Positions 1 through 30,398 of a stretch of 41,613 nucleotides of DNA are shown one piece after another. The stretch is from a virus. Position numbers and translations under genes: made by a program. How positions within the stretch are numbered: the stretch's first letter is position 1; each line of letters starts with the position of its first letter. The stretch lies in IMG/VR virus record IMGVR_UViG_3300037106_000074, positions 1 to 41,613 of that record. One strand, 5' to 3'. Under the pieces are notes generated by a model that did not search any database, was not told where the DNA came from, and saw nothing but the letters and a program-made list of their open reading frames with translations.

Positions 1-103
1 AGCAGGTTATTTATTATTTGTGCTACTAATTAAATTCATCTCGTTTTGATAGCTTAGTGTTTCAAAATCCGCAACGATATGCTACACGCAGCCGTTATAA
101 AAC
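1..103 (-). repeat. attC-like site 1 (partial, cut by window start)
   Basis: This is the R'' half, arm and loop of the recombination-like site downstream of cassette 1. Bases 1-99 are identical to 3003-3101. The missing R' part can be predicted from that second copy. GTTATAAAAC at 94-103 is the left terminal sequence of cassette 1 and pairs with GTTTTATAAC at 253-262. Confidence 0.65.
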
Positions 104-106
104 AGT

Positions 107-322
107 TTAAGAATACCACCCACTTCCGAGCATTTGTTCTTTACCACATTTCTCACATTTATGTAATCTTGAACTACAACACCATTCACCTTCTTGTGGT
201 ATTGGGTCAGGTGTCATATCTATTTGTTGCCAATCGTGTTTACAAAAAAACCGTTTTATAACAACAAATATACCCAATTTGGGTTTTTGTGTTTTACTTA
301 AAGTTTCTATATTTTTATTCAT
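107..322 (-). CDS. Cassette 1: small zinc-ribbon-like protein
   Basis: Unknown protein of up to 71 residues. The part inside the cassette contains CKHDW followed by a CEKCGK pair near the C-terminus, so a small four-ligand zinc ribbon is plausible. The only upstream ATG in frame lies inside attC-like site 2, so the first 22-24 residues (from MNKNIE) are encoded by the recombination site and not by the cassette proper. Starting at the internal ATG (MTPDPIP) would remove the CKHDW half of the motif. Either the site supplies the start codon or a non-ATG start is used. No function can be assigned. Confidence 0.55.
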   Translation of the reverse strand: MNKNIETLSKTQKPKLGIFVVIKRFFCKHDWQQIDMTPDPIPQEGEWCCSSRLHKCEKCGKEQMLGSGWYS

Positions 323-389
323 TTTATCTGTAATTTAAAGTTTATACTATTTAATCCAAAACTGGGTATATTTGCGACCGTTATATGGC
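253..389 (-). repeat. attC-like site 2
   Basis: The site runs from GTTTTATAAC (253-262, R' side) to GTTATATGGC (380-389, R'' side). The inner arms CAAATATACCCA and TGGGTATATTTG are perfectly complementary over 12 bases and continue imperfectly. The large loop between the arms (about 80 bases) contains the start codon and first codons of the cassette 1 reading frame. Confidence 0.6.
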
Positions 390-390
390 A

Positions 391-660
391 TTATAAAGAG
401 CCAGTAACTACGAACTTGAAGTATTTATAATCATTTGTTTCCTGTTCAGATAACGCAAGTTCTGATTCTAACATAGCCTTCAAATAGTTATATCTTTCCT
501 CAATTTCTCTTTTACGTTTAAGTTCAATTTGTTTGAAATGTTCCTCTTGATTGTACTTAGCCTGTAATTGAGCAAGTTTTTCCATGCCATCACCATCGAA
601 ATAATTTTTAAGCATTTTCCAACTTTCGACTTCTTCTTTTGATTTTAAAAAATTCCACAT
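391..660 (-). CDS. Cassette 2: unknown coiled-coil protein, 89 aa
   Basis: Not recognised. The sequence is highly charged, rich in Glu, Lys and Leu, and has the heptad-like character of a helical or coiled-coil protein (residues 10-80). The gene fills its cassette: the stop lies only a few bases from the terminal GTTATATGGC and the ATG is about 40 bases from the opposite terminus, so there is little room for a private promoter. Transcription probably reads in from upstream cassettes or from a promoter near the GTTA end. Confidence 0.65.
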   Translation of the reverse strand: MWNFLKSKEEVESWKMLKNYFDGDGMEKLAQLQAKYNQEEHFKQIELKRKREIEERYNYLKAMLESELALSEQETNDYKYFKFVVTGSL

Positions 661-697
661 AATATTTAGTTTAAATTGTTAATATTCAATAAATAAC

Positions 698-794
698 GCC
701 ATATAACACCGTATATAAAACATGGCTTGATAGGTTCGTGCTAACTTGAAACATTCGAACAAAGCCACGTTTCATACACGAAACGTTATAAAAC
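698..794 (-). repeat. attC-like site 3
   Basis: Ends are GCCATATAAC (698-707) and GTTATAAAAC (785-794). The arms at 711-728 and 761-777 are complementary except at two positions five bases apart, which are G-T on the coding strand and A-C on the other strand. The apical loop is about 32 bases. Confidence 0.7.
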
Positions 795-808
795 ATTTCC
801 CACCACGC

Positions 809-1117
809 TTAATAGTGCAAGTCAATAAACAGAACATCATCTTCATTATTATATTTTACGCAACACCAAGCAGGATGATATTGCTCCAAACTTTCTTTAA
901 TAATATTCCCCTGTTCATCTTTGAATGTATGTTCACCTTCTTTTAAATAAACACCCCAATTATGTTTTTCATAATAAATATCTTCAACTCTCTGAACTAC
1001 AACTTTAGCATTATCAGGTAAGTTGTGTTTATTTAAAAAATTCTTTAAATCCCCGACAGTTAAAAAATCTTGGTATCTGTTTGTTAATTCTTCTTTTGTA
1101 ATTTCTTTTATTTCCAT
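809..1117 (-). CDS. Cassette 3: unknown protein, 102 aa
   Basis: Not recognised. The N-terminal third, containing TVGDLKNFLNKHNLPDNAKV, resembles the short helical module often found at the start of small phage or cassette proteins that predict 'degree of precision' style folds. The C-terminal half has a WCCVKYNNEDDVLFIDLHY tail with paired cysteines. The stop lies 15 bases from the cassette end and the ATG about 11 bases from the other end, so the gene occupies nearly the whole cassette, as is usual for integron cassettes. Confidence 0.65.
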   Translation of the reverse strand: MEIKEITKEELTNRYQDFLTVGDLKNFLNKHNLPDNAKVVVQRVEDIYYEKHNWGVYLKEGEHTFKDEQGNIIKESLEQYHPAWCCVKYNNEDDVLFIDLHY

Positions 1118-1127
1118 CGCTCAAAAC

Positions 1128-1231
1128 GTTTTATAACAAAGGCTATAAGCAATTGCCTATCAGCGTTTGTCGGTTAATTGAACAGTATTTACAAGGCAAC
1201 TGCTCATAGCCTCGACCGTTATACACAATAC
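1128..1231 (-). repeat. attC-like site 4
   Basis: Ends are GTTTTATAAC (1128-1137) and GTTATACACAATAC (1218-1231). The 17-base arms 1141-1157 and 1195-1211 (GGCTATAAGCAATTGCC type) are complementary apart from the two recurrent wobble positions. The apical loop is about 37 bases. Confidence 0.72.
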
Positions 1232-1279
1232 TACATTTGTGTTTTAAATTAAGTTCTGTGTAAAAAACTTTTTAAAAAT

Positions 1280-1699
1280 TTACCCTTCCTTTTCTTGTCT
1301 TTCATCAATCACATTATTCATAATTCCAATAACTTCATACATAAATGTTTCATCAACACCATCCTTTTCAACTTTCTCAGTATTACCTAATAAGTACGCT
1401 ACATTACCCCACCATAAATTTTTGTAATTATCAACTTTATTGGTTTCGTGATATTTTGGGTTATGATAATCTAAAAATTCTCTAAAAGAAATGAATGATT
1501 TTGCTCGTAATCCCATATCAACAACTTCTTTAATCAATTTGTAAAGTTTGTTGTAATTTTTAGATTTACCATAGTATCCTTGTAAATACTCAACAATATC
1601 ATGAGTCCATTCATCTGAAAGATTATTATTTACATTCTCATTCACAAATTGTTTAAAGTTTTTCACTTTATCTATCATTTCTCGTATTTCCTTACTCAT
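1280..1699 (-). CDS. Cassette 4: unknown protein with capsid-targeting-like leader
   Basis: 139 residues, of unknown function. The first 22 residues (containing KNFKQFVNEN at 13-22) are nearly the same as those of the cassette 5 protein, and the DNA is also similar over these codons, whereas the rest is unrelated. The leader resembles the T4 internal-protein capsid-targeting sequence (YQEFIAEA type), which is removed after an acidic residue by the prohead protease. The remainder is mostly helical, with several Tyr and Trp residues. Packaging into the virion is an inference from this resemblance only. Confidence 0.65.
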   Translation of the reverse strand: MSKEIREMIDKVKNFKQFVNENVNNNLSDEWTHDIVEYLQGYYGKSKNYNKLYKLIKEVVDMGLRAKSFISFREFLDYHNPKYHETNKVDNYKNLWWGNVAYLLGNTEKVEKDGVDETFMYEVIGIMNNVIDERQEKEG

Positions 1700-1802
1700 A
1701 TTATTTTAGTTTATATATATATATTCAGAATTAATTTTTCCAACACACATTTTTAAAAAGTTTTTATCTGTGTTCCAAATCAACATTCTACCATAATAAA
1801 CC

Positions 1803-1941
1803 GTACTGTGTATAACACGCAGTATAAGAAATAGCGGTTTCAGTGGTATATTCAGCATTTGTACTTCTATTATAGTTAATCTGTTCTGAAAAGTTTAGTG
1901 TTTCAAATCCGCTACTTCTCATACTGCCATTCGTTATGCTC
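1803..1941 (-). repeat. attC-like site 5
   Basis: Ends are GTACTGTGTATAAC (1803-1816) and GTTATGCTC (1933-1941). The 19-base arms 1819-1837 and 1909-1927 pair throughout apart from the two recurrent G-T/A-C positions. At about 71 bases, the apical loop is long. Confidence 0.72.
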
Positions 1942-1999
1942 CATGCCTTAGTTTAGTGTTTCAATTTGAATTCTGTGATGAAAAACAAAAAGAATTTCC

Positions 2000-2509
2000 C
2001 TACGCACTAATATTTGTATAATAATTTAATAATTCTTCATAAGTTTTTGGGAACATATCTTTAAATTTTTCAACTCTATTGGTAATGTCAGTCCATTTAT
2101 TTCTATCACCATACAAGTACCCAATTATTTCTTCATCATTTTTATTTTGTAAATCAAAAACACTTCTATTAAAATTATCAAATACCCAAGGGTCTATGAT
2201 ATATCTATCATTCATTACTGCAAAATGATGTCCTTCATCACTATCATCACCATTTTCTTCTACAAAATATTTAGCATCTGGATTTTCACTTGTACTAAAT
2301 CCATATATTTTTATTTTATCACCTTCCAACATTTTCACTGCTGATGCCACATAAGTACAAATAAATGAAGAAGGTTCTATTACCTTTTCTAACATTTCAA
2401 TTAGTTTTGGATTATCATAGATATATGGATTAATACTTCCAATATTCTCATTCACAAATTGCTTAAAGTTCTTCATCTTATTAATCATTTTTCGTATATC
2501 TTCACTCAT
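2000..2509 (-). CDS. Cassette 5: putative Cys-His-Asp peptidase-like protein
   Basis: 169 residues. Residues 1-22 match the leader of the cassette 4 protein (MKNFKQFVNEN at 12-22). The remainder has CTYVASAVK (Cys51), GHHFAVM (His94/95) and YIIDPWVFD (Asp106). This is the order and spacing expected of papain/transglutaminase-like folds, where a Cys at the start of a helix is followed by His and Asp on adjacent strands. Family members include proteases, deamidases and acyltransferases. With the leader, this could be an enzyme carried in the capsid and delivered to the host. The enzyme class is inferred from the motif pattern; the substrate is unknown. Confidence 0.6.
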   Translation of the reverse strand: MSEDIRKMINKMKNFKQFVNENIGSINPYIYDNPKLIEMLEKVIEPSSFICTYVASAVKMLEGDKIKIYGFSTSENPDAKYFVEENGDDSDEGHHFAVMNDRYIIDPWVFDNFNRSVFDLQNKNDEEIIGYLYGDRNKWTDITNRVEKFKDMFPKTYEELLNYYTNISA

Positions 2510-2618
2510 AGTTTTTAATTTATATATAAATATTCAAATTTTAAAAATCCACCCCAAAATTCTTTTTGTTTTTCTTTCGTGTTTCAAATCAGCATTTATG
2601 CTTAATAAGTCGGCACGA

Positions 2619-2716
2619 GAGCATAACAAGGTGTATAAGAAAGTTTGCTATCAACAGTAGTGGTAATTTGAAAGTTCATCTAAGCAAACCTTCTCATACA
2701 CCCAGCCGTTAGGTGC
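2619..2716 (-). repeat. attC-like site 6
   Basis: Ends are GAGCATAAC (2619-2627) and GTTAGGTGC (2708-2716). The 20-base arms 2630-2649 and 2683-2702 differ from perfect complementarity at only two positions, the recurrent wobble pair. This is the cleanest site in the array. Confidence 0.75.
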
Positions 2717-2741
2717 AAGCGTGGGTCGGCTGCGCTTGCAC
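2713..2741 (-). repeat. Perfect 9-bp hairpin at the 3' end of cassette 6
   Basis: GTGCAAGCG and CGCTTGCAC are perfectly complementary around an 11-base GC-rich loop, immediately after the cassette 6 stop codon and overlapping its R'' end. There is no T-run, so it is not a classical terminator. It may protect the transcript end or extend the folded recombination site. Confidence 0.55.
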
Positions 2742-2748
2742 ACTATTA

Positions 2749-2949
2749 CTATTTTGAACTTGACGAGCTACTTTTAAAAAGTATGCCAGCTAATAAGTTC
2801 AATCCTAATGCCTGCCAAAATCCGATTTTAATAAGTCCGAAAATTGTAGGCATAAGCCAGTTCCATAACCACATTGTAGGTAATGCCATCAACACGGCAG
2901 CCACAACTACTAATCCAATTACTGCAAAAATTTTAGTAAGTATTTCCAT
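2749..2949 (-). CDS. Cassette 6: small two-helix membrane protein
   Basis: 66 residues from the ATG (MEILTKIF). A longer frame exists but would start at TTG inside the recombination site. It has a hydrophobic helix at about residues 4-28 and a second at about 34-56, then a short KSSSSSSK tail. It is probably an inner-membrane protein of unknown role. Small membrane proteins are common cassette cargo. No family is recognised. Confidence 0.65.
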   Translation of the reverse strand: MEILTKIFAVIGLVVVAAVLMALPTMWLWNWLMPTIFGLIKIGFWQALGLNLLAGILFKSSSSSSK

Positions 2950-2968
2950 TGTTTTTAAAATTGCGCCA

Positions 2969-3104
2969 GCACCTAACAACGTGTAGCATCCATTGCGGTG
3001 TTAGCAGGTTATTTATTATTTGTGCTACTAATTAAATTCATCTCGTTTTGATAGCTTAGTGTTTCAAAATCCGCAACGATATGCTACACGCAGCCGTTAT
3101 AGCC
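2969..3104 (-). repeat. attC-like site 7
   Basis: The R' end ACCTAAC (GTTAGGT on the coding strand) fits the canonical integron R' consensus GTTRRRY exactly. The other end is GTTATAGCC (3096-3104). The arms around CGTGTAGCAT and ATGCTACACG are complementary with one extra base on one side, instead of the paired wobbles of the other sites. Bases 3003-3101 are identical to 1-99. Confidence 0.75.
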
Positions 3105-3106
3105 AA

Positions 3107-3289
3107 TTAAAAAACTACCACACAAGGAAACTCTAATGCTTTACCGAAAACAGGGCAATCGACTTCTTTTGCAAATTTTACAGCAAAATCATAAGGGCAG
3201 TTTTCACCAAGCCATTTTTGAATTTGCTCTTTTGCATCGGCAGCAAATCTTACAACATATTTACCATCTCTATTAAAAACTTTTTTCAT
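3107..3289 (-). CDS. Cassette 7: unknown protein, 60 aa
   Basis: Not recognised. Begins MKKVFNRDGKYVVRFAAD and contains two cysteines. The size and the alternating basic and hydrophobic pattern suggest a small globular alpha/beta protein. The cassette is only about 220 bp, and its 15-bp terminal inverted repeat (3096-3110 with 3300-3314) has one mismatch. Confidence 0.62.
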   Translation of the reverse strand: MKKVFNRDGKYVVRFAADAKEQIQKWLGENCPYDFAVKFAKEVDCPVFGKALEFPCVVVF

Positions 3290-3305
3290 AATTTAAAAAT
3301 TAACT

Positions 3306-3405
3306 GGCTATAACACACGGTATAAAACATGCCGTGACAAGCCTGTGTATAATTTGAAACGTTCTACATCGGCACGTTTCATACCGCCACCGTTATACAC
3401 AATAC
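3306..3405 (-). repeat. attC-like site 8
   Basis: Ends are GGCTATAAC (3306-3314) and GTTATACACAATAC (3392-3405). The 17-base arms 3318-3334 and 3370-3386 pair fully except at the two recurrent wobble positions. The apical loop is about 35 bases. Confidence 0.74.
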
Positions 3406-3444
3406 TACATTATACGTTCTAATTAGCATTTTGTTACAAAATTT

Positions 3445-3759
3445 TTAATTAATATGTTCACAACGTTCAAAATTAATTTCATTAAAATTTAAATTAATTT
3501 GACATTTATGTAATTTCCATATATTAGTATTATCATTTGGAATTATAAAAGCACTATCAAATAACTCATATTTTCCTTCAATGTTATTTTCACCAACGAC
3601 AATAAATTTAAATGGATTCCATTTTGATTTACCTGTAAATTGTTTTGTTCCATTATCATTTATTTTTTCTTCGATAACAAGAGTTGGATTTTCATTAAAA
3701 TTTATTCTGAAAATAAAACTTCCCAAAATTAATTTACCATTTTTTACTTCATTTTTCAT
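3445..3759 (-). CDS. Cassette 8: unknown protein, 104 aa
   Basis: Not recognised. It starts at ATG (MKNEVKNGK); a three-codon extension would use TTG. The sequence is beta-rich, with repeated short hydrophobic strands and many Asn and Lys residues, like a small beta-sandwich or lipocalin-like protein. The cassette shares its terminal and subterminal DNA with cassette 4 (TACACAATACTACATT on one side, AATAAACCGTACTG on the other), although the proteins are unrelated. Confidence 0.62.
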   Translation of the reverse strand: MKNEVKNGKLILGSFIFRINFNENPTLVIEEKINDNGTKQFTGKSKWNPFKFIVVGENNIEGKYELFDSAFIIPNDNTNIWKLHKCQINLNFNEINFERCEHIN

Positions 3760-3834
3760 AATATTCAATTTTATTTATAATTATTCTTAAAAAGTTTTTG
3801 TTCGTTTTTCATATCAACATTTTACTTTAATAAA

Positions 3835-3936
3835 CCGTACTGTGTATAACAACGTGTATAAAACATAGCCAATTAAGGTTTCTGGCTTATATCAAGTGTC
3901 GTGCGTGGCAACGTTTCATACACACAACCGTTAGCG
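3835..3936 (-). repeat. attC-like site 9
   Basis: Ends are GTACTGTGTATAAC (3835-3848) and GTTAGCG (3930-3936). The arms 3852-3868 and 3907-3923 pair apart from three positions, two of them the recurrent wobble pair. The stop codon of the cassette 9 gene (TAA) is part of the R'' core CGCTAAC. Confidence 0.72.
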
Positions 3937-4113
3937 TTCATTTGCCAACGCACTCTGATACATTTCTTCAAGGTCTTTAAAAAACTTATTTCCTTGAATT
4001 ACTATCATTGATGGATTATATGTATTTACATATCTAGTGTAAACATCTTCAATTCTTTCATAACAATCGTGTTTATCTCTACCTTTTTCAGTATTAATCC
4101 ATTGTAAATACAC
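3931..4113 (-). CDS. Cassette 9: unknown protein, about 60 aa
   Basis: Not recognised. The frame starts at GTG (reading MYLQWINTEKGRDKHD), but coding-like sequence continues upstream without an ATG (KIVTATKPR), so the true N-terminus is uncertain and may be damaged. Its stop codon lies within the recombination-site core. The opposite cassette end (GTATAAC at 4184-4190) does not complement its R'' (GTTAGCG), unlike all other cassettes, which suggests a hybrid or decayed cassette. Confidence 0.5.
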   Translation of the reverse strand: MYLQWINTEKGRDKHDCYERIEDVYTRYVNTYNPSMIVIQGNKFFKDLEEMYQSALANER

Positions 4114-4183
4114 TCTCGGCTTTGTTGCTGTTACTATTTTCAGTTCAGATACTTGTTTTTAAAGTCCATTTTAAATTTGTTTT

Positions 4184-4233
4184 GTATAACCAATACTACA
4201 TTAATACGTTCTAATTAGCATTTTGTTACAAAA
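4184..4233 (-). other. Array boundary: duplicated cassette end without an attC site
   Basis: GTATAAC (4184-4190), the outer end of cassette 9, is followed directly by a stretch at 4192-4233 that matches the left end of cassette 8 (3401-3441) with a single-base insertion. No palindromic site lies between them. This looks like the end of a tenth cassette joined after loss of its attC, and it marks where the recognisable array stops. Confidence 0.5.
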
Positions 4234-4234
4234 A

Positions 4235-4360
4235 TTAACGTTTTTTATGAAAAAACTTCATTATTTTAATCCAAATTTTATCAATAAAAATTAATAAGTA
4301 CATGAGAACTGCACCAAAAGTAACACCAATACAAAAATATAAAGAATTAAATAGTTCCAT
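4235..4360 (-). CDS. Small membrane protein, 41 aa
   Basis: ATG start at 4360. The protein begins MELFNSLYFCIG and has one strong hydrophobic helix (about residues 7-26), then a basic tail ending KFFHKKR, which predicts a cytoplasmic C-terminus. Its start overlaps the end of the preceding gene by 14 bases, so the two are likely co-translated. Unknown function. Confidence 0.5.
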   Translation of the reverse strand: MELFNSLYFCIGVTFGAVLMYLLIFIDKIWIKIMKFFHKKR

Positions 4361-5424: not shown

Positions 5425-5817
5425 TTAAATTTTTTTAAAATTAAATTGGGTTCTTAGTCCAAATTCTTGTTCATCTGGAGGAAATTTTGTTAAGAACATA
5501 TTATGAAAACCATTTTTTATTTCTTCAATAAAAAATCCATGAATTTCACCTTTAAATAAATTATTTCTTTCTTTAGACTTCCAATAAGCAGTTTCATCAT
5601 ATGAAATAGGTGTTTTATCACTATTTTTATTACCCCAAGATATTTGTGTTTTTCCAACAATAGTCCAAAATTTATATGTAGATTCCATTATTTCAAATTT
5701 ACTATCATGTAATTTGACTTCTAAAAGTGTTAAACAAATATCATTATTAGTATCATCTTTTAATATAAAATATTGTTCAATGATTTTAAAAAATTCGAAT
5801 CGTGGTTTTACTTGCAT
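5425..5817 (-). CDS. Unknown protein, 130 aa
   Basis: Not recognised. Begins MQVKPRFEFFKIIEQYFILK. It is beta-rich with conserved-looking aromatic residues (YKFWTIVGKTQISWG, AYWKSKERNN). The C-terminus contains GFHNMFLTKFPPDEQEFG. Together with the next upstream gene it forms a pair of similarly sized beta-rich proteins. Neither shows a signal peptide. No function can be proposed. Confidence 0.62.
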   Translation of the reverse strand: MQVKPRFEFFKIIEQYFILKDDTNNDICLTLLEVKLHDSKFEIMESTYKFWTIVGKTQISWGNKNSDKTPISYDETAYWKSKERNNLFKGEIHGFFIEEIKNGFHNMFLTKFPPDEQEFGLRTQFNFKKI

Positions 5818-6317: not shown

Positions 6318-7589
6318 ATGTTAAAATTATACAAATATAAACTAAAACCGGATAATAACCAAATTATTTTATTAAATAAACATTTTGGCTGTATTAGATT
6401 TATTTATAATTATTTTCTCAATGAACGTAAAAAAGAATATGAAACTAATAATCAAACACTTAATTATTATGATAATACAAAAGCATTAACCGAATTAAAG
6501 CATTCAAATGAATATATTTGGCTTAATGAAATTTGTGCACAATCTTTACAACAGTCTCTTAAACATCTTGATGGAGCATATAATGGATTTTTTAAAGGTA
6601 GGACAAAGTTTCCAAATTTTAAATCTAAACACAATAAAAATAGTTTTTGCGTTCCTCAAGCAGTAAAATTAATTAATAATAAACTATATATACGTAAATT
6701 TAAAGGAGGAATTGGTGTTATTATTGATAGGAAATTTAAGGGAATTATAAAACAATGCACAATAACCAAAACACCAACTAATGAATATTTTGTTAGTATT
6801 TTAGTTGAAACCGAACATGTTAAATTACCTAAAACTAATAAAAGTATTGGAATAGATTTGGGATTAAAAGATTTTGCAATAACATCAGAAGGATTTAAAT
6901 ATAAAAACAATAAATATACTAAACAATATGAAAAGAAATTAAAAAAAGCACAACAACATTTATCAAAAAAAACAAAAAATTCGAAAAAATTTGAACAACA
7001 AAGATTGAAAGTGGTTAAAATATACAAGAAGATAACCAATTCTCGTGTAGATAATCTACATAAAGTAAGTACTGACCTAATTAAAAAATATGACATAATT
7101 TGTTTAGAAGACCTTAATATTAAAGGTATGTCAACAAGATGCAAGCCAAAACAAGACAAAAATGGTAAGTATTTATCCAATGGTCAATCAGCAAAATCAG
7201 GACTTAATAAATCTATATCAAATGCTAGTTGGGGTACTTTTGTTGAAATGCTTAATTATAAAGCCAATTGGAATGATAAACAAATTGTTAAAATTAATAG
7301 ATTTTATCCTTCAAGTAAAACATGTCATATTTGTGGCTATATAAATCAAGACTTAAATCTTTCTATTAGAGAATGGAAGTGTCCTAAATGTGGTATTGTT
7401 CATGATAGGGATATAAATGCTGCAAAAAACATATTAAAAGAAGGTCAGAAAATATTACTTAATGATTTAACAAATAATATTGACAATAACAAATCGTCAG
7501 GGACTGACGATAACAGACGTGGAGACCAAATAAGACCTGTTATAACGGGCACAATCGATGAAACGTCCAAAATTCTTAGCATAAGTTAA
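6318..7589 (+). CDS. tnpB: TnpB, RNA-guided nuclease of the IS200/IS605 group
   Basis: 423 residues, the usual TnpB length. The N-terminal WED/REC-like part (with YKLKPDNNQ and FGCIRFIYNYFL) is followed by a RuvC-like nuclease: Asp180 in SIGIDLGLKDFA, Glu264 in CLEDLNIKGM, and the third acidic site in HDRDINAAKNIL (Asp363/365). The zinc-binding Cys residues 336, 339, 355 and 358 are present, so the enzyme looks intact. No TnpA transposase is nearby, making this a solitary element dependent on a helper. It is inserted opposite to the surrounding minus-strand genes without breaking any of them. TnpB proteins cut DNA guided by an omega RNA from the element's right end and so retain the element in the population. 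Confidence 0.95.
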   Translation: MLKLYKYKLKPDNNQIILLNKHFGCIRFIYNYFLNERKKEYETNNQTLNYYDNTKALTELKHSNEYIWLNEICAQSLQQSLKHLDGAYNGFFKGRTKFPNFKSKHNKNSFCVPQAVKLINNKLYIRKFKGGIGVIIDRKFKGIIKQCTITKTPTNEYFVSILVETEHVKLPKTNKSIGIDLGLKDFAITSEGFKYKNNKYTKQYEKKLKKAQQHLSKKTKNSKKFEQQRLKVVKIYKKITNSRVDNLHKVSTDLIKKYDIICLEDLNIKGMSTRCKPKQDKNGKYLSNGQSAKSGLNKSISNASWGTFVEMLNYKANWNDKQIVKINRFYPSSKTCHICGYINQDLNLSIREWKCPKCGIVHDRDINAAKNILKEGQKILLNDLTNNIDNNKSSGTDDNRRGDQIRPVITGTIDETSKILSIS

Positions 7590-29240: not shown

Positions 29241-30398
29241 TTAATCAATACCTTTATCAGAATAACTTGAAAATTGTTTGGGAATACCAATGCATGAACC
29301 AATTGCTGTTGCATCTACAGTAATTAATTTACCACCACCAATACCAGTAACTGGAACTTTATCTGGAACTTGGTCAAGACAAGTAACTACAACATTTTTT
29401 CGAGATTTTGGATTATTATAATTGTCACAATCAAATGCATATCTTAATAATCCAATATCAAGTATTGATTTTCTGAATACACCTTGCCATCCATCATTTA
29501 CGTTGGTTTCTAATGGATTATCCTTAATATAACTAATGTCCATGCCTTCATTTGTCATCGGACCATTTCCATGACGAGTCTGATATGCACGTGTTATATA
29601 GTATGTATCGACATTTCTTTCATTAATTGTAATTCCAAGTTTGTTTATGATTTCAATTGCATTTTTGCTTGTTGTATTGCTTCGTGTAACATGTGGAAAA
29701 AATCCATAATCCATATCAAGCATGATGCCTTGACCACCTTCAAAAATTAAGTCAAAATAATCAGTAGGTATTGATGAACCAAGTAAGTATATATCATATA
29801 TTGTATTTACAATATCAAATCTACTTACAAGGTCATCACATGCTAATTTAAAATCATCAATTATTTTTTGAGTTTTGGAATTGGCAAGACTAATATATTC
29901 ATAATATTTTTCTTGTAAAAGTTTGAGTTTAATATCACGAATTTTTGGATATTGTAAATCTCTGGCATATAAATGAAAAAAATCTTCATTTCTTTTAATT
30001 GTTGTACCAAAACCAACGCCAACAGTACCATGAAGATTAAGACTATCAAGTTTAATATTTTTCAAAATATCAAAAGGTGTTGTTATCATTGCATTTGCAT
30101 TAATAAATAATTGAGGATGAATTTCCATTTTTCTCAATGCATTGCCTTCTTTTAGTATTCCCACAGGATTTACAGTACAATATTCTGACCAATATGTTGG
30201 TGCGCCTAATAGTGTACCCGAACCAAAATTTGAGAATACATGTCTTTTATCATCAATAACTACTGTATGTCCGCATTGATGCCCGCCATTGAATCTTATA
30301 ACTAATGGATTATTGGATTTACTACAAAGATAATTTACAAATGCACCCTTGCCTTCATCTCCAAACAAAAATCCTAAACAAATTGATATTGAATTCAT
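29241..30398 (-). CDS. purA: Adenylosuccinate synthetase (PurA)
   Basis: 385 residues, shorter than the usual 430 of bacteria. Conserved blocks: GFLFGDEGKG (13-18, with catalytic Asp14), RFNGGHQCGHTVV, GTVGVGFGT, FEGGQGIMLDMDYGFFPHVTRSNTTS, YITRAYQTRHGNGP and VTCLDQVPDKVPVTG (base-binding region). PurA couples IMP and aspartate with GTP hydrolysis to make adenylosuccinate, the step toward AMP. The Asp in FGDEGKG is kept, whereas PurZ enzymes that make 2-aminoadenine precursors replace it, so this looks like PurA. A phage copy would raise adenine nucleotide supply, useful for an AT-rich genome. Confidence 0.93.
   Translation of the reverse strand: MNSISICLGFLFGDEGKGAFVNYLCSKSNNPLVIRFNGGHQCGHTVVIDDKRHVFSNFGSGTLLGAPTYWSEYCTVNPVGILKEGNALRKMEIHPQLFINANAMITTPFDILKNIKLDSLNLHGTVGVGFGTTIKRNEDFFHLYARDLQYPKIRDIKLKLLQEKYYEYISLANSKTQKIIDDFKLACDDLVSRFDIVNTIYDIYLLGSSIPTDYFDLIFEGGQGIMLDMDYGFFPHVTRSNTTSKNAIEIINKLGITINERNVDTYYITRAYQTRHGNGPMTNEGMDISYIKDNPLETNVNDGWQGVFRKSILDIGLLRYAFDCDNYNNPKSRKNVVVTCLDQVPDKVPVTGIGGGKLITVDATAIGSCIGIPKQFSSYSDKGID

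Follow-up and report, generated by a model that had tools for sequence, protein, structure and literature searches.

Can a bacteriophage keep its own exchangeable store of small genes, in the manner of an integron? The question was raised by a stretch of viral DNA of 41,613 nt (IMG/VR record IMGVR_UViG_3300037106_000074, positions 1 to 41,613; hereafter the window), in which nine small genes, every one on the minus strand, lie at 107-4113 within an array spanning 1-4190. Integrons are gene-capture platforms known from bacteria and archaea. An initial annotation had read the array as integron-like and as lying inside a phage genome, a reading supported here by covarying attC sites, an attI site, a recombinase and differences in cassettes. 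Judged from sequence comparison, the array very probably belongs to an integron-like system encoded by a phage, a jumbo myophage probably of Bacteroidota. By anatomy and comparative behaviour the system is an integron; by the IntI domain it is not a member of that class.

An attI-like site and a tyrosine recombinase at the end of the array

Stretches of the window recurred at 100% identity in IMG/VR contigs of 207,816 (G001), 348,923 (G005), 51,383 (G004) and 68,919 bp. Beyond window position 1 lay one further cassette (J), then attI, then the recombinase. In G001 this tenth cassette, a 100% copy of cassette D over 394 nt, was followed by the array end GCACCTAAC|TATAATATATAAAG. The attI-like site, TAAC|TATAATATATA, was located just outside the window and adjoined the recombinase, which started 36 nt past the junction in G001 on the strand of the cassette genes. 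The exact attI-recombinase junction of the phage represented by the window (the query phage) was found in G001 and G005 only.

Relatives of the recombinase were encoded at 180 places in viral contigs, of which the best 80 (56-100% identical) were kept. At the junction in most related phages, the sequence was unlike up to TAAC and then ran TA..ATATATA. Of 72 phage loci, 65 had the consensus TAACTATTATATA, itself read from these loci, with up to 2 mismatches and no more than 85 bp from where the recombinase starts, compared with 2 of 1681 control windows taken from the same loci. The 72 (67 of them distinct) comprised 71 of the 80 recombinase loci and one additional locus, L019; the nine omitted had too little flank or were copies. 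Different cassettes were found on one attI, as expected of a cassette joining point beside the integrase.

In G001 and G005, the two larger contigs, the array abutted the recombinase, a tyrosine recombinase of 269 amino acids (aa). The initial annotation had pointed to an IntI-type or other tyrosine recombinase as the enzyme to look for; a tyrosine recombinase did sit at the array end, but it was not IntI by domain. R134, K159, K162, H219, R222, H245 and Y254, which we take to be catalytic, were invariant in 56 sequences, giving the full set of R, K, H-x-x-R, H and Y. The NCBIfam integron integrase model TIGR02249 scored 152.9 bits against a cut-off of 265 and was split in two stretches; each of the ten proteins scanned likewise scored below the cut-off with a split match. 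IntI4 (2a3v) also aligned in two stretches either side of the insertion, with 33 residues between versus 80, and the spacing from K to HxLRH was 58-60 in every phage protein in which both motifs were found (44 of 45).

The best NCBIfam model was XerA NF040815 (167.9 bits, cut-off 220), which carries the NCBI name 'site-specific tyrosine recombinase/integron integrase'. Five phage proteins scored 167.9-195.4 bits on it, below the XerA cut-off, and among the ten scanned proteins L161 (Gillisia) alone passed, with 233.3 bits. The nearest solved structures by sequence were the XerA/Xer proteins 4a8e (1.4e-34) and 5hxy (1.8e-32). An AlphaFold2 model of the recombinase (predicted local distance difference test 85.7, predicted template modelling score 0.62) was closest to XerA 5hxy (Z 22.6), with a root-mean-square deviation (rmsd) of 13.8 over 257 residues, indicating that the domains were placed differently. 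Further structural matches were XerH 5jjv (Z 20.2) and IntI4 2a3v (Z 19.5, rmsd 4.7 over 260 residues). No close relative of the recombinase was found in a cultured phage (23 records; 33.6-40.6% identity among the matches listed), and no partner gene was conserved behind it, the largest shared family occurring in 3 of 44 loci.

When 78 recombinases were placed in a tree, 30 of the 33 rows from bacterial genomes fell in one starred branch (100/99). Outside it were 45 viral rows together with L115, L116 and L117; the fork setting the viral rows, L115 and L116 apart was weak (63/92). L115 and L117 had the phage layout of the array and probably represent phage contigs that were binned with bacteria.

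Covarying attC-like hairpins and cassette-specific ends

The sites between the genes had the form TAACG...GTTA, the one at the window start being incomplete. Eight sites (alignment A1) shared a stem of 23 pairs, with 95.1% standard pairs and 14 pairs changed on both sides. Stem covariation was 0.589, versus 0.159 in shuffled alignments (0 of 500 shuffles) and at most 0.174 when the stem was slid. The structure was drawn from the same eight sites that were scored, which favours it; despite this, a home-made covariance model (R1) derived from the attC-like sites of the window found hundreds of sites beside related recombinases (399 matches from 81 sources, E up to 1). A covariance-model scan had been named at the outset as a check on the sites, and they fitted the model. 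The earlier description of nine minus-strand genes with palindromic sites between them was therefore borne out. The hairpins were imperfect, had R and L boxes and were conserved in structure more than in sequence, as attC sites are.

When rows of A1 were folded as DNA (minus strand, L001), B, D, E and F were beaten by only 0-3 of 200 shuffles (z -4.18 to -2.43). For rows C, G and H, 11-16 of 200 shuffles folded equally well (z -1.59 to -1.74), and row A folded no better than chance (124 of 200 shuffles, z 0.36). Two stem pairs were mostly G.T on the gene strand, in 6 and 8 of the 8 sites; on the opposite strand these wobbles become facing A.C mismatches. Classical attC sites have one-sided bulged (extrahelical) bases, which set the strand that is recombined.

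Compared by eye, the start of a cassette (GTTAxxxxx) and its own end (xxxxxTAAC) were inverted repeats in eight of the nine window cassettes. The cassette-specific inverted ends with a TAAC/GTTA core that had been claimed thus held for eight cassettes and failed for the outermost one (3931-4190). Across 110 cassettes from the window phage and its relatives, own start and own end matched at 5.63 of 8 positions, versus 3.30 of 8 when the ends were shuffled (highest of 200 shuffles, 3.65). The two flanks of a single attC, which come from different cassettes, matched at 3.40 of 8.

Cassette exchange between related phages

Cassette content and place differed among near-identical phage contigs, answering the call of the initial annotation for a comparison of related genomes. 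L055, L059 and L060 were identical for 2,651 nt starting at attI; L060 had a different attI-proximal cassette, and L055 and L059 differed one cassette further out. L053 and L057 were 99.84% identical over 10,853 nt from attI, and the adjacent cassette differed. In both sets the identity began at TAAC or one base earlier. A 960-nt cassette with one hairpin was interior in L093 and was present in L082 (99.9%, 10 kb examined) as a sole full copy at attI; the cassette preceding it in L093 was followed by a different cassette in L082. In L081 the 960-nt cassette was at attI, and the contig opened with the final 114 nt of another copy. One nearly identical hairpin of 48-60 nt was repeated before several cassettes in L081, L082 and L093.

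Cassettes were also common to distinct contigs (L044 and L114, 99.4%; L056 and L093, 97.5%). The unit shared in these two pairs, and in cassettes D and J, was an attC with a gene, ending at or near TAAC. Gain, loss and reordering of cassettes were seen by comparing relatives, outside the query phage itself.

Spread of the arrays among viral loci

More than 1 kb was available upstream of the recombinase in 63 of the 80 viral loci, and 60 of the 63 had attC-like hairpins there. The 60, some of them near-copies, comprised 54 found by our own stem scan, L047, L051 and L106 found by R1, and L104, L107 and L108. The loci without hairpins (L049, L059 and L076) each had just 1.0-1.2 kb upstream. The stem scan yielded 206 sites on the recombinase strand and 2 on the other strand, and none on shuffled sequence (one 3-mer shuffle per locus, plus strand only). 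As a control, 24 RNA-ligase loci from other phages (L009-L032) were scanned; sites were present in L019 alone (IMGVR 3300031578_000066). In this relative of the query phage, an array of its own and a recombinase 59% identical over 258 aa occupied a different position in the backbone.

Two flanking matches that lie 14 kb apart in the query phage, integron region included, were separated by about 1.9 kb in L019. More attC-like sites were observed downstream of the recombinase, on the same strand and in addition to the upstream array, in L037 (11632-12354) and L066 (18267-20612).

Gene orientation and cassette contents

Of 136 intervals between neighbouring sites in phage arrays (41 loci, some near-copies), 122 had their longest open reading frame pointing toward the recombinase, 13 had it pointing away and 1 had none. 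In bacterial arrays, by contrast, 25 of 31 intervals pointed away, 5 toward (2 of these in L117, with the phage layout) and 1 had none (13 loci). The order of a gene followed by its attC, read away from attI, was thus not the rule in phage arrays. Outward from the recombinase the layout was otherwise classical, with attI and then units starting G|TTA and ending in attC. Of the 399 R1 matches, the 300 listed lay on the recombinase and gene strand; of 94 R1 matches at genome loci, 86 were on the opposite strand and 8 on the same strand (L115, L117 and L188). This strand pattern indicates that the gene is flipped relative to the hairpin and that the difference is not merely one of naming. The earlier placing of a palindromic site 3' of each gene was wrong, as the hairpin travelling with a gene is on its 5' side. 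AT-rich stretches, looked at as possible promoters, preceded cassettes and phage genes.

Among 106 cassette proteins (8 from the window and 98 others), seven Pfam families were found with one member each, including a DNA methylase, an RNA ligase, an exonuclease and YopX. PADLOC matched 56 families, of which the 25 listed were methyltransferases with one member each, and PHROGs matched 44 families, of which the 25 listed again had one member each. No blastp pairs at E 1e-4 over 60% of the shorter protein were found among the 98 non-window proteins, identical ones having been dropped. Relatives of cassette E (58%) occurred in two viral contigs that had no R1 sites in the stretches examined, a hint that ordinary phage genes become cassettes.

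Cassettes F (1280-1699) and E (2000-2509) had a common upstream sequence and the N-terminal KNFKQFVNEN and then diverged. To us this peptide recalls the propeptide of T4 internal proteins. However, the motif FxxF[VILM]xE near the start was found in 0 of 98 cassette proteins of other phages, and a looser propeptide pattern gave merely scattered matches across the phage genome; virion cargo was dropped as an explanation. The earlier hint that cassettes encode virion proteins found no support in the motif, Pfam, PADLOC or PHROG searches.

Related arrays in Bacteroidota

Related recombinases were found in Bacteroidota (Flavobacterium, Gillisia, Pelobium and others), with 41-48% identity to the phage protein in ten rows. 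R1 sites at E 1e-5 (Infernal, stricter filters) were present in 30 of 80 Bacteroidia genomes, including G043. In a contrast class, that of G046 (a metagenome-assembled genome named Methylophaga), they were present in 1 of 46 genomes, namely G046 itself. A bacterial attI core, CATATATACAAGTTA, was found about 100 nt past the recombinase with up to 3 mismatches in 14 of 39 loci, versus 2 of 1129 control windows, the consensus having been read from the same loci on which it was scored. An inverted-repeat pattern for the bacterial attI fitted 1 of 39 loci and was replaced by this consensus. The bacterial core resembles the phage attI read on the same side, TTATATATAATAGTTA. Because of this likeness and of the R1 sites in Bacteroidia, Bacteroidota are the likely hosts of the phage.

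The bacterial arrays resembled the phage ones in having a related recombinase, a similar attC stem and the attI core. They differed in that the array lay behind the 3' end of the recombinase, the genes mostly pointed away and the attC was at the 3' end of the gene; duplicated bacterial cassettes (L191, L159 and L128) were gene-then-attC units. Loci such as L128, L161 and L192 had attC-like sites beside Xer-like recombinases without the IntI insertion. Such loci in Bacteroidia would be integron-like systems that domain-based searches would miss. TIGR02249 at E 1e-60 matched none of the 80 Bacteroidia genomes; no control genome matched either, so absence is unproven.

Cassettes of the window

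All window features below are on the minus strand. At 1-104 the window end cuts an attC-like site on the 5' side of cassette J (R1 27.7 bits, partial), which is whole at L001 12406-12544 (68.5 bits). The gene of cassette I (107-322, 71 aa) had weak PHROG matches, one of them to a zinc-finger protein (E 0.033), and its first ATG lies within the attC-like site of the same cassette (253-390, 69.7 bits). No function was assigned to the genes of cassette H (391-660, 89 aa; site 698-795, 82.1 bits) and cassette G (809-1117, 102 aa; site 1128-1228, 93.4 bits). The cassette F gene encodes 139 aa with an N-terminus resembling cassette E (D4 repeat), and its site is at 1807-1943 (85.9 bits); the cassette E gene encodes 169 aa of no assigned function, with its site at 2618-2718 (89.1 bits).

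Cassette D is the unit of attC and gene (2708-3101, 394 nt) of which cassette J, adjoining attI at L001 12411-12804, is a 100% copy. Its gene (2749-2979) encodes a small membrane protein (phrog_705 / phrog_2169), and its attC-like site is at 2968-3106 (68.6 bits). The genes of cassette C (3107-3289, 60 aa; site 3305-3402, 78.6 bits) and cassette B (3445-3768, 107 aa) again had no assigned function. The cassette B site (3841-3940) is row A of A1 and scored 86.9 bits with the folding z of 0.36 given above. The outermost cassette, A (3931-4190), had unmatched start and end and no attC-like site on its 5' side, and is seemingly decayed. At the far edge of the array (4191-4236), positions 4204-4236 were 97% like 3412-3444, the 3' end of cassette B (D13 repeat), and are perhaps the remnant of a lost cassette.

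A solitary attC-like site with a gene following it was observed at L208 8570-8669 (about 268.6 kb in G005; 62.8 bits), far from the array and the sole R1 site of G005 outside the array sites. It may represent a decayed cassette at a secondary site.

The phage genome carrying the array

The window represents part of a jumbo phage genome. G005, with parts of the array at both contig ends, exceeds 200 kb and has head, portal and tail genes matching phrog_138, 213, 207 and 23. It encodes a portal, a tail sheath, a major head protein and a head maturation protease, together with 33 predicted tRNA genes. The contig begins within cassette D and stops within copy J of that cassette, indicating that the genome is probably circular or circularly permuted; the full genome, including the rest of the array, would probably be about 352 kb. 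Many of the records searched for phage genes were fragments; the phrog_138 major head protein was found in 12 of 24 records (in G005 and not in G001) and in 0 of 14 controls, and the tail sheath PF04984 in 8 of 22 records, 4 of them above the cut-off. PF00589 was present in 2 of 20 records, both from the query phage, in a set chosen by RNA ligase and cassette E that did not include the L019 record.

Matches to the left-flank gene (5425-5817) came from no contigs other than those of the query phage. For the right-flank gene, 79% relatives occurred in two contigs that had no R1 sites in the stretch examined; these two share only that stretch and so provide no empty-site test. A TnpB-like (OrfB_IS605/Cas12f1-like) gene lies near the array at 6318-7589 on the plus strand. 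A PurZ-like gene (29241-30398; 2-aminooxy adenylosuccinate synthetase in PHROGs) hints that the phage DNA may contain modified adenine. A tRNA gene cluster at L207-L208 includes one called tRNA-Pyl with anticodon CTA, a possible amber suppressor.

Discussion

Each cassette consists of a small gene (sometimes more) and one attC-like hairpin, and G|TTA, which reads TAAC on the gene strand, is the point at which it joins attI or the adjacent cassette. As in integrons, the XerA-like phage recombinase would be the catalyst, cutting attC folded as a single strand; cassettes would be released or taken up as circles and inserted at attI. Given insertion at attI, the newest cassette would be the one adjoining the recombinase. 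As most genes point back to the recombinase on its strand, they are probably transcribed with the preceding phage genes or from their own promoters.

Several observations weigh against an integron-like system of the phage. The recombinase is without the IntI-specific insertion, the additional domain around patch III. Four of the eight aligned sites do not fold clearly better than shuffles, and wobbles take the place of the classical bulges, so that the hairpins may be handled differently. The longest reading frame runs in the opposite direction in 13 of the 136 phage intervals. Where contigs of the query phage overlap, their arrays are identical, with no variation seen there. All junctions come from metagenome assemblies, and misjoining is possible where L081, L082 and L093 repeat their hairpin.

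A passive cluster of attC sites lacking an integron integrase (CALIN) could instead have come from a host integron and be moved, if at all, by a host integrase in trans, with the recombinase serving dimer resolution or integration. We regard this as improbable. Such clusters are published in virulent phages, with some attC sites used by IntI1, in excerpts of PMC9892861, and similar hairpins are present in the 30 of 80 Bacteroidia genomes noted above. Published tools might even label this array a CALIN, since the recombinase adjoining attI in G001 and G005 is not IntI by domain. However, hairpins lie upstream of the recombinase in 60 of 63 viral loci with a conserved attI at most 85 bp from its start, most phage genes are reversed in their cassettes relative to bacterial arrays, and TIGR02249 at E 1e-60 was unmatched in the same Bacteroidia genomes, with the reservation about controls already given.

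Very little credence is given to a host integron contig misjoined to phage sequence, or to arrays that are assembly artefacts. Contigs do end inside the repeated cassette D/J or its attC (the window start; both ends of G005), as when an assembler stalls at repeats, and one hairpin is repeated several times in L081, L082 and L093. Nevertheless, the junction of array and phage recurred at 100% in G000, G001 and G004 and the side of recombinase and phage in G001 and G005, so that the wrong joining of a host contig, named at the outset as a possible refutation, was not borne out. The 45 viral recombinase rows also lie apart from 30 of the 33 bacterial rows in the tree, and L055/L060 and L053/L057 are unlike before TAAC, with a match probably too short for k-mer misjoining. 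Equally hard to credit are hairpins that are transcription terminators or structural repeats between ordinary phage genes, with differences arising by homologous recombination. The hairpins are located between genes, and attC sites are thought to contain weak terminators in the excerpted text of PMC9892861; yet the R-box inverted repeats are specific to each cassette, identity breaks at TAAC, a conserved attI lies beside the recombinase and the covarying stem has two fixed wobbles.

The integron-like system of the phage shares with IntI integrons a recombinase by attI, an array of small genes, covarying attC hairpins, G|TTR-like junctions, and cassette differences and reordering between relatives. 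It differs from them in its phage recombinase without the IntI insertion, the attI just 36 nt from the recombinase start in the query phage, the reversal of most phage genes in their cassettes and its carriage by jumbo phages. Xer proteins resolve dimers at dif sites. XerA/Xer (5hxy, 4a8e) are the nearest solved relatives of the phage recombinase, which by comparison is linked to cassette arrays. In Spirochaetota, integrons whose intI is reversed encode an IntI that has the specific domain. They likewise have an unusual orientation of the recombinase relative to the array, according to excerpts of PMC9668308. The IntI-specific domain is held necessary for recombination (Messier and Roy 2001, cited in the excerpted PMC9668308), and the insertion is described as not fully conserved in an integron-like subgroup, yet essential, in excerpts of PMC8138268.

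Among the open PubMed Central titles listed, PMC9892861 (Qi et al. 2023) was the only one on integrons in phages, and a term search of the text of a 2026 jumbo-phage review (PMC13282480) did not find 'integron'. The excerpts of Qi et al. describe CALINs and integron parts in phage genomes, virulent ones included, with attC-type cassettes like those seen here, and a complete integron in an inactive Shewanella prophage. In those excerpts the virulent phages have attC clusters lacking an integron integrase, whereas the large phages here have a recombinase of their own kind and attI.

We consider it likely that the giant phages and their Bacteroidota sister system represent a second kind of integron, with a recombinase that has no IntI domain. 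The phages would keep their own attI and reversed-gene cassettes, and small genes would be swapped from phage to phage and perhaps with host integrons that share their attC type. Such a system would provide them with a dedicated machine for evolving accessory and counter-defence genes. Bacteroidota are among the phyla with integrons in excerpts of PMC9668308, and the excerpted IntegronFinder 2.0 survey of complete genomes (PMC9024848) names one complete Bacteroidota integron, in Salinibacter ruber; compared with that one, many integron-like arrays are indicated here. If true, a widespread platform owned by phages and lacking the IntI domain would change how integrons are defined and searched for, because IntegronFinder requires the IntI-specific domain (excerpts of PMC9668308). 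It would also account for the way in which giant phages gain small accessory genes and change their order.

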